Below, in pieces: positions 46,236-49,537 of a stretch of 64,000 nt of DNA; the stretch's first letter is position 1, and every line of letters begins with the position of its first letter. The stretch comes from Streptomyces sannanensis. Its GTDB lineage: Bacteria > Actinomycetota > Actinomycetes > Streptomycetales > Streptomycetaceae. The translations under genes were made by a program, and so were the position numbers. The notes below the pieces were generated by a model. It had not been told where the DNA came from and made no database searches. It was given only the letters and a program-made list of their open reading frames with translations. Location: contig NZ_BAAAYL010000001.1 in NCBI RefSeq assembly GCF_039536205.1, forward strand, positions 3,844,001-3,908,000, given 5' to 3'.

Positions 46236-47687
46236 ATGGCTTACGACGATCTTCGCTCGCTGCTCCGGGCGCTGGAACGCGAGGGTGACCTCAAGCGCAT
46301 CAAGGCCGAAGTGGACCCGTACCTGGAGGTCGGAGAGATCGTCGACCGGGTGAACAAGGCGGGTGGCCCGGCGCTCCTCTTCGAGAACGTCAAGGGCTCC
46401 TCGATGCCCCTGGCGATGAACGTGTACGGCACCGACCGTCGGTTGCTGAAGGCGCTCGGCCTGAAGTCCTACGACGAGATCAGCGAGAAGATCGGCGGCC
46501 TGCTGCGCCCCGAGCTGCCGCACGGATTCGTCGGCGTCCGCGAGGCCTTCGGCAAGCTCGGCGCGATGACGCACGTACCGCCGAAGAAGGTGAAGGACGC
46601 CCCGGTCCAGGAGGTCGTCCTCACCGGCGACGACGTGGACCTCGACCGGCTGCCCGCGCTGTTCACCTGGCCCGAGGACGGCGGCTCCTTCTTCAACCTC
46701 GGTCTGACGCACACCAAGCACCCGGAGACCGGGATCCGCAATCTCGGTCTCTACCGGCTCCAGCGCCACGACAAGCGCACCATCGGCATGCACTGGCAGA
46801 TCCACAAGGACAGCCGGAACCACTACGCCGTGGCCGCCAAGAGGGGCGAGCGGCTGCCCGTCGCCATCGCCTTCGGCTGTCCGCCGGCCGTGACGTACGC
46901 GTCCACCGCGCCGCTGCCCGGGGACATCGACGAGTACCTCTTCGCCGGTTTCGTACAGGGCCGGCGCATCGAGATGGTCGACTGCAAGACCGTCCCGCTC
47001 CAGGTCCCGGCGCATGCGGAGGTCGTGCTGGAGGGCTGGCTGGAGCCCGGCGAGATGCTGCCGGAAGGTCCCTTCGGCGACCACACCGGCTTCTACACGC
47101 CGCAGGAGCCCTTCCCGGCACTGACCATCGACTGTGTGACGATGCGGAGGCGTCCGCTCCTCCAGTCGATCGTGGTCGGCCGCCCGCCGACGGAGGACGG
47201 CCCGCTGGGACGGGCCACGGAACGTTTCTTCCTGCCGCTGCTGAAGATCATCGTGCCGGACATCGTGGACTACCACCTGCCCGAGTCGGGCGGCTTCCAC
47301 AACTGCGCGATCGTTTCGATCGAGAAGAAGTACCCCAAGCACGCGCAGAAGGTCATGCACGCGATCTGGGGCGCGCACATGATGTCGCTGACCAAGCTGA
47401 TCGTGGTGGTGGACGCCGACTGCGATGTCCACGACCTCCACGAGGTGTCGTGGCGGGCACTCGGCAACACGGACTACTCCCGCGACCTGACCGTCGTCGA
47501 GGGCCCGGTCGATCACCTGGACCACGCGTCGTACCAGCAGTTCTGGGGCGGCAAGGCGGGCATCGACGCGACCGCGAAGTGGCCCGAGGAGGGCTACACC
47601 CGGGACGGCGGCTGGCCGAACATGGTCCTCCCGGACCCGGAGACGGCCGAACGAGTGACAAAGCGCTGGAAGGAGTACGGGCTGTGA
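46236..47687 (+). CDS. mqnL: Menaquinone biosynthesis decarboxylase (UbiD family, MqnL)
   Basis: The 483-residue UbiD-type enzyme decarboxylates the naphthoate intermediate using prenylated FMN made by the UbiX partner (mqnM downstream). Family blocks are GGPALLFENVKG, NLGLYRLQRHDKRTIGMHWQ with the prFMN/metal residues, the E-R-E site region in PLQVPAHAEVVLEG and EGPFGDHTGFYT. The order mqnL-mqnP-mqnM is that of Streptomyces futalosine-pathway genes. The stop is separated from mqnP by a 79-base insertion-like stretch. Confidence 0.93.
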   Translation: MAYDDLRSLLRALEREGDLKRIKAEVDPYLEVGEIVDRVNKAGGPALLFENVKGSSMPLAMNVYGTDRRLLKALGLKSYDEISEKIGGLLRPELPHGFVGVREAFGKLGAMTHVPPKKVKDAPVQEVVLTGDDVDLDRLPALFTWPEDGGSFFNLGLTHTKHPETGIRNLGLYRLQRHDKRTIGMHWQIHKDSRNHYAVAAKRGERLPVAIAFGCPPAVTYASTAPLPGDIDEYLFAGFVQGRRIEMVDCKTVPLQVPAHAEVVLEGWLEPGEMLPEGPFGDHTGFYTPQEPFPALTIDCVTMRRRPLLQSIVVGRPPTEDGPLGRATERFFLPLLKIIVPDIVDYHLPESGGFHNCAIVSIEKKYPKHAQKVMHAIWGAHMMSLTKLIVVVDADCDVHDLHEVSWRALGNTDYSRDLTVVEGPVDHLDHASYQQFWGGKAGIDATAKWPEEGYTRDGGWPNMVLPDPETAERVTKRWKEYGL

Positions 47688-47770
47688 CGGGGAGCAGGAA
47701 TACGGGGTTCGGCAGCGCGGTACCGGGGTTTCCCCGCCGGCGCGGGGGCGAACCGGAGTACGGACTGTGA
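47672..47770 (+). repeat. 16-bp direct duplication flanking a 67-bp insertion between mqnL and mqnP
   Basis: GGAGTACGGGCTGTGA (47672-47687, end of mqnL) recurs as GGAGTACGGACTGTGA (47755-47770, start of mqnP). The 67 bases between contain a CRISPR-like palindrome at 47727-47755. Removing one copy plus the insert would make mqnL and mqnP overlap by GTGA. Confidence 0.8.
47727..47755 (+). repeat. Solitary type I-E CRISPR-repeat-like palindrome
   Basis: The 29 bases have the core CCCCGC-CGGC-GCGGGG followed by GCGAACCG, the same architecture as type I-E repeats. No second repeat is found 61 bases either side. Confidence 0.45.
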
Positions 47771-48669
47771 GCACCTCCGCCGCCGCGGTCCCGCAGCCGG
47801 GCCGGACCCGGGCGTTCCTGCGCCTGGTGATGATCGAGCACTCGGTCTTCGCGCTGCCCTTCGCGTACATCGCCTCCCTCACGGCGATGTTCCGGCTGGA
47901 CGGCCGCATCCACTGGGGCGATCTGCTGCTGGTCACCGTCGCCATGGTGGGCCTGCGGACGTTCGCGATGGCCGCCAACCGGATCATCGACCGTGAGATC
48001 GACGCCCGTAACCCGCGCACCGCCCACCGTGAACTCGTCACCGGGGCGGTCTCGGTGCGCTCCGCGTGGACGGGCGCGCTGATCGCCGTCGTGATCTTCC
48101 TCGGGGCGGCCGCGCTGCTGAACCCGCTGTGCCTGGCCCTGGCCCCCGTCGCGGTGGTGCCGATGGTGGTCTATCCGTACGGCAAGCGGTTCACGAACTT
48201 CCCGCAGGCCATCCTGGGCCTGGCCCAGGCGATGGGCCCGGTCGGCGCCTGGCTCGCGGTCACGGGGGAGTGGTCCTGGGAGGCCGTGGTCCTCGGCCTC
48301 GCCATCGGCATCTGGATCGGCGGCTTCGACCTGATCTACGCCTGCCAGGACGTGGAGTCGGACCGCGCCGGGGGAGTGAAGTCGGTCCCGGCCCGCTTCG
48401 GCATCCCGGCCGCGCTGTACGGCGCGCGCGGCTGCCATGCGGTCACCATGGCCCTGCTCGTCTGGTACGCCCTGGTCACTGACGGTGGTGCGTTCCTCTG
48501 GCTGGGCCTGGTGATCGTCGCTGGCGCGTTCCTCTACGAGCACACGATCGTGAAACCCCATGACCTGTCCCGCCTGAACAGGGCCTTCTTCACTGTCAAT
48601 GGTGTGATCGGGATCAGCCTGTTCCTCTTTACGCTGATGGATCTGCTTGCACGTGGGCTCACGGTGTGA
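47767..48669 (+). CDS. mqnP: UbiA-family prenyltransferase of menaquinone synthesis (MqnP)
   Basis: The 300-residue membrane enzyme attaches the polyprenyl chain to the naphthoquinone precursor. It has eight or nine helices and the two Asp-rich diphosphate sites, NRIIDREIDARNPRTAHRE near residue 75 and DLIYACQDVESDRAGG near 190. It starts at GTG 47767, inside the second copy of the 16-bp duplication. A hairpin (48687-48709) and CRISPR-like repeats follow it. Confidence 0.94.
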   Translation: MSTSAAAVPQPGRTRAFLRLVMIEHSVFALPFAYIASLTAMFRLDGRIHWGDLLLVTVAMVGLRTFAMAANRIIDREIDARNPRTAHRELVTGAVSVRSAWTGALIAVVIFLGAAALLNPLCLALAPVAVVPMVVYPYGKRFTNFPQAILGLAQAMGPVGAWLAVTGEWSWEAVVLGLAIGIWIGGFDLIYACQDVESDRAGGVKSVPARFGIPAALYGARGCHAVTMALLVWYALVTDGGAFLWLGLVIVAGAFLYEHTIVKPHDLSRLNRAFFTVNGVIGISLFLFTLMDLLARGLTV

Positions 48670-48686
48670 CTACTCGATCGTGTGAT

Positions 48687-48709
48687 CGGCCGCTGTTTCT
48701 CAGCGGCCG
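48687..48709 (+). terminator. Terminator hairpin after mqnP
   Basis: A 9-bp perfect stem, CGGCCGCTG with CAGCGGCCG, closes a TTTCT loop 17 bases past the stop. Confidence 0.65.
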
Positions 48710-48735
48710 GCCCGAGGTGCGGCTGGCGTTGCGGG

Positions 48736-48825
48736 ATTGTCCCCGCATATGCGGGGATGTTCCGCCGTTCACGGTCAAGAAGGCGCGGTTCAGCCGGTCG
48801 GCCCCGCATGCGCGGGGGTTCTGGT
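48736..48825 (+). CRISPR. Minimal repeat-spacer-repeat with type I-E geometry
   Basis: Repeat 1 (48736-48764) has the core CCCCGC-ATAT-GCGGGG and tail ATGTTCCG, very close to actinobacterial type I-E repeats. Repeat 2 (48797-48825) has CCCCGC-ATGC-GCGGGG with a degenerate tail. The cores are exactly 61 bases apart, giving a 32-base spacer (48765-48796), the standard I-E unit. Read on the minus strand, the spacer encodes RLNRAFLTVN, matching MqnP residues RLNRAFFTVN with 25 of 32 bases identical. No cas genes or leader are visible. Confidence 0.5.
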
Positions 48826-48858
48826 CCGGCGGCCCGACTCGGATGTCCGGCCGCCGGA

Positions 48859-48864
48859 TAGGCT
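48859..48864 (+). promoter_or_regulatory. -10 hexamer for leaderless mqnM
   Basis: TAGGCT lies seven bases before ATG 48872. The second CRISPR-like repeat ends 33 bases upstream of it, close to where a -35 would be. Confidence 0.5.
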
Positions 48865-48871
48865 CGGCGTC

Positions 48872-49537
48872 ATGAACGACGGCAAACGCATCCCCTGGGT
48901 CGTCGGTGTGTCCGGGGCGTCCGGGACGCCGTACGCGGCGTCGGTGCTGCGCGGGCTGCTGGCGGCCGGGGAGAGCGTGGACCTGGTGGTCAGCCGTGCC
49001 TCGCGGCTGACGCTGCTCGACGAGACGGGGATCGCGTTCCGGGACGCGCACTGGCGTGACGATCTGACGGCCTGGCTGGCGCGTGGCGCGGACGGGAAGC
49101 CGGACACCTTCGAGGTGCCGGTGGACGACGTACGGTACTGGGCCGCGGGGGATCTGGCGGCGGGGCCGTCGTCGGGCTCGTACCCGGTGAAGGGGATGCT
49201 GATCGTGCCGGCGTCCACGGCCTGTGTGGCCGGAGTGGCGCTGGGCCTGTCGAAGGATCTGCTCCAGCGGGTGGCGAGCGTGACGCTCAAGGAGCGGCGC
49301 AGACTGGTGATCGCGGTGCGGGAGACCCCGCTGAGCGGGCAGACCCTCAAGCACCTGGTCGCGCTGGACGAGGCGGGAGCCGTGGTGCTGCCCGCCTCGC
49401 CGGCGTTCTACGCGGGGGCGACGCACATCCAGGATCTGGTGGACTTCGTCGCGGGGCGGGTGCTGGACGCGGCAGAGGTGCCGCACAAGCTGTACCGCCG
49501 TTGGGAGGGAGAGCTCGGTGGCTCTCGGGGGGCTTAG
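48872..49537 (+). CDS. mqnM: Flavin prenyltransferase (UbiX family, MqnM)
   Basis: The 221-residue protein has the FMN-binding start WVVGVSGASGTPYAASVLRG, the VSRAS serine loop, GMLIVPASTACVAGVALGLS and the C-terminal VRETPLS and ASPAFYAG blocks. It prenylates FMN to make the cofactor of the UbiD-type enzyme MqnL. It has its own leaderless start here and is followed by a convergent 47-residue gene. Confidence 0.94.
   Translation: MNDGKRIPWVVGVSGASGTPYAASVLRGLLAAGESVDLVVSRASRLTLLDETGIAFRDAHWRDDLTAWLARGADGKPDTFEVPVDDVRYWAAGDLAAGPSSGSYPVKGMLIVPASTACVAGVALGLSKDLLQRVASVTLKERRRLVIAVRETPLSGQTLKHLVALDEAGAVVLPASPAFYAGATHIQDLVDFVAGRVLDAAEVPHKLYRRWEGELGGSRGA

Follow-up and report, generated by a model that had tools for sequence, protein, structure and literature searches.

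The window, a 64,000-nucleotide stretch (C1:3844001–3908000) of the 7.83-Mb genome of Streptomyces sannanensis, was compared with same-genus relatives such as S. pseudovenezuelae (G011, locus L187). It contains mqnP (47767–48669, plus strand), an open reading frame for a UbiA-family prenyltransferase (PF01040), and, downstream on the same strand, a gene for a UbiX-like flavoprotein (48872–49537; PF02441), at whose start the replaced patch of L232/L201 described below comes to an end. Between the two lies an element of about 90 bp that begins 67 nt downstream of the mqnP stop codon (48667–48669). Direct reading of its plus strand gives a 29 nt repeat (ATTGTCCCCGCATATGCGGGGATGTTCCG, 48736–48764), made up of the hairpin CCCCGC-ATAT-GCGGGG followed by a crRNA 5′ handle, ATGTTCCG; a 32 nt spacer (48765–48796, plus strand), which alignment with mqnP alleles identified as a guide antisense to mqnP; and a second 29 nt repeat (GTCGGCCCCGCATGCGCGGGGGTTCTGGT, 48797–48825, plus strand), in which the hairpin and the 5′ part are retained and the handle has decayed. 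With starts at 48741 and 48802, the palindrome cores are exactly 61 nt apart, and so the sequence-only reading of a 29 + 32 type I-E unit about 70 bases past mqnP was correct in spacing and in position. As judged from the letters, the plus-strand order of hairpin, handle, 32 nt guide and hairpin is that of a complete predicted crRNA cassette. The two repeats are identical at 18 of 29 bases by direct reading, which falls short of the near-identical repeats of type I-E.

The element is a guide cassette alone, with no endonuclease gene read within it, and the five genes that surround it belong by family to the UbiD, UbiA, flavoprotein, Lrp/AsnC and radical-SAM types, with no cas gene among them. 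An Rfam scan of 48300–49300 returned no match up to an E-value of 1. Searches with the spacer gave no phage match covering 80% of its length, and plasmid matches at E-values of 0.2–0.7 only, nothing beyond chance.

Several other features were seen around the unit. Between mqnP and the unit, bases 48688–48708 form a perfect 8-bp hairpin (GGCCGCTG/CAGCGGCC) without a T run; this is perhaps the mqnP terminator, in which case the unit would possibly need a promoter of its own. Directly 3′ of repeat 2 and 5′ of the UbiX-like gene there is a 14 nt inverted repeat (48825–48858; 93% complementary, 6 nt gap). On the other side of mqnP, the interval that separates it from the UbiD-like gene contains a lone I-E-like core (CCCCGCCGGCGCGGGG, at about 47732, C1:3891732), and within 47672–47771 the end of the UbiD-like gene, GGAGTACGGGCTGTGA, is nearly duplicated as GGAGTACGGACTGTGA immediately 5′ of mqnP; core and near-repeat together are perhaps a further decayed unit. 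A perfect repeat-like sequence occupies the same interval, between the UbiD-like gene and mqnP, in L177. Recognition by eye placed Uma2-like open frames between mqnP and ubiX in L035, L045, L049 and L052, and a rhomboid-like gene there in many relatives.

The local counterpart of the target site lies at 48571–48602 on the minus strand, where alignment confirmed the reported 25 of 32 identical bases and placed the mismatches at spacer positions 3, 6, 9, 12, 21, 23 and 30. Third codon positions account for six of these seven and the first base of an arginine codon for the remaining one, as had been described; position 12, where TTG Leu stands for TTC Phe, is not a silent change. Codon register was discarded as separate evidence on the spacers in general, since in coding DNA of high GC content a PAM of AAG by itself sets the wobble bases on positions 3, 6 and 9. 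The spacer fits 19 of the 34 other mqnP alleles better than the local one, with the best fit, 29 of 32, in L032, L033 and L035; in L035 the three mismatches all fall at positions 6, 12 and 18, beside an AAG PAM. A search for a closer mqnP elsewhere was thus successful, and the proposed source of the spacer in the mqnP of a relative is borne out. At positions not divisible by six, the spacer matches its own locus at 23 of 27 bases and the flanks of other loci at no more than 18.

Comparison of 116 mqnP alleles (34 relatives, the own allele, G084 and 80 named loci, some genomes being counted twice) gave the PAM as AAG in 58, AAC in 37, AAA in 11, AAT in five, ACA in three and ACG in two. The PAM position of the local site (48603–48605, minus strand) reads ACA, and the own seed is mismatched in addition at positions 3 and 6. 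In G084 the PAM is ACG and position 6 is the sole seed mismatch.

Five further genomes carry a unit after mqnP, with differing guides: L049 (G030), G084, L206, L232 and L236. The unit of L049 was detected by reading among the loci of the 34 relatives and was missed by the strict motif. An exact pattern, which sees just two target sites, matched three of 392 genomes (own, G030 and G084). A scan of the 80 named loci for cores 60–63 nt apart with at most seven mismatches gave three units, in L206 (Streptomyces sp. Ag109_O5-1), L232 (S. fuscichromogenes) and L236 (Streptomyces sp. NWU339), low-scoring matches in L177, L194, L213 and L244 and extra matches in L232 and L236 being left out. At these frequencies the unit is not an intergenic feature conserved in many strains. 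Two target sites in mqnP are in use: site A is common to the own genome and G084, and site B to L049, L206, L232 and L236.

The mqnP unit has counterparts elsewhere in the genome. Two cores spaced by 61 nt, with up to three mismatches allowed, occur at eight places in the 7.8 Mb, the mqnP unit included, and the reversed control pattern at none, which is more than chance would give. Seven of the eight places have no or one mismatch; the eighth has three and was treated as chance. In the own genome, one unit lies 5′ of rlmN, with a guide that spells MPEPGDLT in antisense; one lies 3′ of thrS, has a core spacing of 62 and spells VQLDFTLPE in antisense; one lies 3′ of a DUF4233 gene and spells TTLVGEFFLI; and one lies 5′ of ffh (L113, C1:5017243), with three repeats and two guides. 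The names RlmN, ThrS, Ffh and DUF4233 come from family matches on partial sequences, below the NCBIfam cut-offs. The two guides of L113 correspond to stretches of ffh that directly adjoin each other, and both have the same sense.

Units at rlmN with guides against the same target, which includes the start codon, were found in at least six genomes (L258, which is the own locus, L264, L268, L275, L122 and L139), the last two having come from a broad array search dominated by ordinary arrays, and decayed units were read in L272, L276 and L285. Of 28 readable thrS loci, three, L304 (own), L318 and L328, have a unit that begins 6 nt past the stop codon, each with a different thrS target, and none was seen at the remaining 25. 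Many relatives have a second thrS-like gene of about 38–46% identity, perhaps a self-resistance copy. Two forms of rlmN start were also recognized, one of the ‘MPKPGELTF’ type behind GACACTGG-N5-7-ATG, which appears leaderless, and one of the ‘MA.PxPG’ type with a GAGGAGT-like ribosome site. The upstream neighbours differ at several rlmN loci of the sensitive class. Chance palindromes or ordinary terminators would likewise be GC-rich, intergenic and hairpin-forming; this explanation is scarcely credible in view of the empty spacing control, the recurrence of guides against one target and the every-sixth-base signature reported below, which contradicts it.

The guides tend to match the gene beside them. 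Seven of 17 spacers fit their own locus above every other locus in the set (P = 2.8e-5), as do six of 11 in the own genome (P = 2.1e-5), against control loci that were picked after the units had been read. The cross-locus control was not exceeded at the own locus for L109, L114, L115, L080 and L073 (five of the 11 spacers of the own genome), nor for L117, L121, L122, L128 and L142. By eye, the spacers of L109, L080 and L142 resemble the ends of neighbouring genes; the spacer of L122 is an rlmN guide, its own gene having diverged. L142 (G154:C222:4091–4167) is a two-repeat unit whose guide reads FFREVLGAER and resembles the C-terminal region of UvrA by eye, a resemblance that does not rise above the control.

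Measured from the core, the target-to-array distances are −480, −372, −170, +106, +109, +394 and +424 nt, on either side of the array. CRISPR-associated Tn7-like transposons carry an att-site guide beside a conserved chromosomal target and tolerate mismatches to it, and a leftover guide of this kind would account for the adjacency and for the imperfect pairing. It is nevertheless a very improbable origin, as the distance varies from −480 to +424 nt and to either side, the mqnP array is on the PAM side of its target and no transposon was seen between the housekeeping genes read. A transposon scar was likewise rejected, a fixed target-array distance being absent.

The positions at which the spacers depart from their targets were also compared. 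Conserved positions were defined as those with at least 90% agreement among the alleles compared, which were all alleles except the array's own for mqnP and thrS, and the 14 of the sensitive class for rlmN. Over 15 spacers, such positions are mismatched in 20 of 33 cases where the position is a multiple of six, and in 13 of 281 where it is not (Fisher P = 1e-14). The effect persists against the other wobble class, which disagrees at three of 39 positions (P = 1.9e-6), and with a single array per target site (eight of 15 sixth positions vs. four of 119 others, P = 1.2e-6). Every sixth crRNA base is flipped out in Cascade, as described in the part of the source drawn on here (PMC5904413). The departures thus coincide with the bases that Cascade flips out, which means that selection has acted on pairing through Cascade.

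The repeats point the same way. Over 17 units, the last eight nucleotides of the repeat carry 1.15 bits in repeat 1 vs. 0.50 in repeat 2, and the first five carry 0.41 bits in repeat 1 vs. 0.84 in repeat 2; the parts of the repeats outside the mature crRNA are the less conserved ones. Together, the sixth-base signature and the conservation of the repeats show long-standing selection on the guides for pairing with the common alleles. Neither of the two origins first offered for the mqnP spacer is supported by these comparisons. A stray spacer does not fit with different mqnP guides at the same place in five genomes and with more units beside rlmN, thrS, ffh and the DUF4233 gene. The fossil of a duplicated mqnP end was rejected on the different guides found at the same site in other genomes and on the departures, which fall mainly at every sixth position and are unexplained by duplication.

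The carriers' own alleles are usually altered at the PAM or in the target, and exceptions exist. At mqnP site B, the own genes of the carriers have 7–9 mismatches outside the sixth positions (ranks 100–104 of 116, with medians of 3–5), and all four carriers are within the 16 mqnP alleles with the tail RAFF.TNG. The other 12 of these 16 have no detected array, L215 among them keeping a relic, which counts against the explanation favoured below. The own mqnP site of L236 has an AAG PAM and 13 mismatches. At site A, the own genome and G084 supply two of the five alleles that do not have an AA PAM. The number of mismatches in the own mqnP is ordinary (rank 62 of 116), so that its escape depends on the PAM, and G084 is among the best matched alleles by mismatches (rank 0), the PAM alone being different.

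The other two genes vary in the same manner. The own thrS has eight mismatches, a PAM of AAA and an unchanged peptide, whereas 27 other thrS alleles have 2–6 mismatches to the same guide, 21 of them with AAG and one likewise with AAA. This own thrS target is unusual (z = −4.5), as are several other windows. In L328 the thrS PAM is CGG, AAG being present in 26 of 28 alleles, while L318 keeps AAG and has nine mismatches against a median of eight; in the comparison for these two loci the ‘own’ row of L304, which is the array itself, was left out. At rlmN, where 27 of 32 loci were readable, six of six carriers have an altered start and none of the 14 sensitive-class genes has a detected array; the altered start is also present in seven loci without a detected array. 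A test of own-allele alteration gave P = 6e-4 with one array per site and P = 1.1e-4 over all 15 arrays, which are non-independent; L236 was scored there at PAM ATC from a slipped alignment, the other alignment giving AAG. The rlmN ranks (P = 0.14–0.36) and L318 are each non-significant singly, in the case of rlmN because altered starts occur without an array too.

This pattern bears on the possibility that crRNA and Cascade act in cis, tuning the neighbouring gene by partial pairing as regulatory crRNA-like elements do. The array does adjoin the gene that it matches, and the rlmN target spans the start codon. However, the carriers' sites are usually worse matched or PAM-less, unit-free genomes match better, and the target in mqnP, some 100 nt short of the stop codon, is not in a promoter, all of which renders cis-regulation improbable.

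In one sister pair the altered allele and the array can be seen to have changed together. When the 3′ end of mqnP is left out of the tree, the four site-B carriers are scattered over four positions, each among alleles lacking the TNG tail; all four placements are forced by supported branches, the bootstrap being unsettled. L049 is placed with L204, L232 with L201, and L236 with L222, L211 and L226. On either side of the mqnP end, L232 and L201 are mostly 93–99% identical in 120 nt windows, with a few worse windows. Strong divergence sets in near codon 270 of mqnP and continues up to the ubiX start, with 11–23 of 30 bases identical per window and about 450 extra bases in L201. The divergent stretch of about 300 bp contains both target and array. 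The altered mqnP end and the array form one replaced patch of about 300 bp, whichever way the swap went. The patch of L232 is common to L206 and, with the array deleted, to L215. Identity drops at the target too between L236 and L222 and between L049 and L204, the far ends being less clear. Moreover, when each site-B carrier is compared with its closest sensitive relative, the tail is more divergent, in proportion to the remainder of the gene, than in any of 265 sensitive pairs, which share genomes; this holds for four of four carriers.

Joint change of this kind was weighed against a barrier that serves only the host, in which chromosomal DNA entering from other species is destroyed by means of the guides, the guides do not spread themselves, and their place by the gene simply follows from being linked to the immune allele. 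Such a barrier draws on the same sequence evidence as the explanation preferred below, and in haloarchaea spacers against relatives limit mating between species, according to the portion of the study used here (PMC12814878). It would have no need for a guide beside its gene, and it leaves unaccounted for that array and gene end change jointly; we regard it as unlikely.

The sequence-only reading suggested looking for cas genes elsewhere in the genome, and they are there. Contig C3 (179.5 kb), on which the Cse1 and Cas7e matches of the own genome are located, encodes Cas3e, Cas8e, Cas11e, Cas7e, Cas5e and Cas6e, and the I-E arrays on C3 carry another repeat than the mqnP unit. No adaptation genes were recognized past cas6e on C3, where the bases were read by eye. 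The C3 system lies within a 13-kb inverted duplication of 97.5% identity (L334, C3:18500–34500; L335, C3:48000–61500), the second copy of which gave only broken Cse1 and Cas7e matches. Beyond the last array of the system there is a CRISPR of another type (repeat …GTGGCGGTCGCCCTCCGGGGCGGCCGAGGATCGCAAC). Among nine carriers tested, a set that leaves out G075, G082 and G094, Cse1 is present in four (own, G113, G418 with L236, and G014), and Cse1 and Cas7e are absent from five (G030, G084, G214, G416 with L206, and G417 with L232).

The absence of Cse1 from five of nine carriers, the divergence of repeat 1 from repeat 2, the decayed units of L272, L276 and L285 and the deletion in L215 would all be expected of an inactive relic of some earlier CRISPR-based process, now without function. 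On the other hand, the own genome retains Cas3e and Cascade, the hairpins and handle of the mqnP unit are intact, and the sixth-base signature requires long selection; a relic is quite unlikely on balance.

The explanation that we favour, at a probability of roughly 0.55, is that a guide against common ‘sensitive’ alleles, linked to a changed ‘immune’ allele, would exclude or replace rivals through cleavage and recombination. The unit would be transcribed and then cut by Cas6e to give one type I-E guide RNA; Cascade and Cas3 from contig C3 would attack any sensitive allele brought together with the unit, be it incoming DNA or the chromosome of a cell receiving the patch; and homologous repair may then copy the immune allele together with the array. 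The unit would in this way work like intronless homing or a toxin-antidote pair, but guided by RNA, excluding rival alleles and perhaps spreading at their cost. In the part of a Haloferax study used here, CRISPR targeting raised mating within the species in a Cas3-dependent manner and tilted recombination towards the strain that does the targeting (PMC12814878); editing by type I-C cleavage in Streptomyces is efficient when repair templates are supplied, and toxicity was observed only in their absence, as far as the part of the report drawn on here extends (PMC11941474). Taken together, these observations imply that a cut in a sensitive allele within a patch-holding cell should lead to copying of the patch. 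Altered own alleles would also result from survivorship alone, if carriers that match their own guide die.

More tentatively, and at somewhat short of an even chance, the elements may be natural CRISPR homing units of Streptomyces chromosomes, single crRNA genes of about 90 bp that would use the type I-E machinery of the cell to cut the sensitive allele of the neighbouring housekeeping gene in other strains and be copied with the recoded immune allele on repair of the chromosome, an evolved gene drive. If true, the CRISPR toxin-antidote and homing drives of engineers would have a natural precedent, in which the guide lies next to an altered version of a housekeeping gene; beyond defence, CRISPR would act to shape housekeeping alleles and keep them apart; and an explanation would be at hand for some orphan mini-arrays and self-matching spacers.

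Finally, the unit can be set beside the systems that it most resembles. With the type I-E arrays on C3 it shares a 29 nt palindromic repeat, a 32 nt spacer (period 61) and a handle ending in TCCG. Unlike them it has one spacer, diverged repeats and no adjacent cas genes, and the spacer matches alleles of the adjacent gene, mqnP, and no mobile element. Regulatory crRNA-like mini-arrays, reportedly described by Shmakov et al. in 2023, are said to lie in cas loci and to pair partially with the promoters of cas or cargo genes. The mqnP unit resembles these in standing alone, in having two repeat-like sequences and in its chromosomal target, and differs in that the guide fits the alleles of other strains above the own one and that the own mqnP offers no match of seed and PAM; on this last point there are exceptions elsewhere, L318 thrS keeping AAG and G084 having one seed mismatch with PAM ACG. 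A Tn7-like att-site guide has in common with it the adjoining conserved chromosomal target and the tolerated mismatches, and is set apart by the unseen transposon, the variable distance and the wrong PAM side at mqnP.

The free-standing homing endonuclease genes of phages provide a further parallel: in intronless homing the element adjoins its target, the element-bearing allele is changed and the neighbourhood is co-converted. Here, too, a small element adjoins the target gene (for seven of 17 spacers), the element-bearing allele is usually changed, though not clearly so in L318 and at the PAM alone in the own mqnP and G084, and in one clear case the neighbourhood has changed with it, with the difference that a guide RNA and borrowed Cas proteins would replace the endonuclease gene, and on a bacterial chromosome. 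In Haloferax, CRISPR cuts the chromosome of a relative and recombination favours the targeting strain, as cleavage by the present units may also do; spacer and target were placed there by the experimenters and do not form a unit linked to an immune allele (PMC12814878). Guides linked to immune housekeeping alleles were not reported in the open PMC papers searched, a scope outside which lie bioRxiv and most subscription papers. In tested features the unit departs from ordinary arrays, from regulatory mini-arrays and from transposon guides, and so appears to be of a new kind, although its parts, crRNA, Cascade and homing, are individually known.
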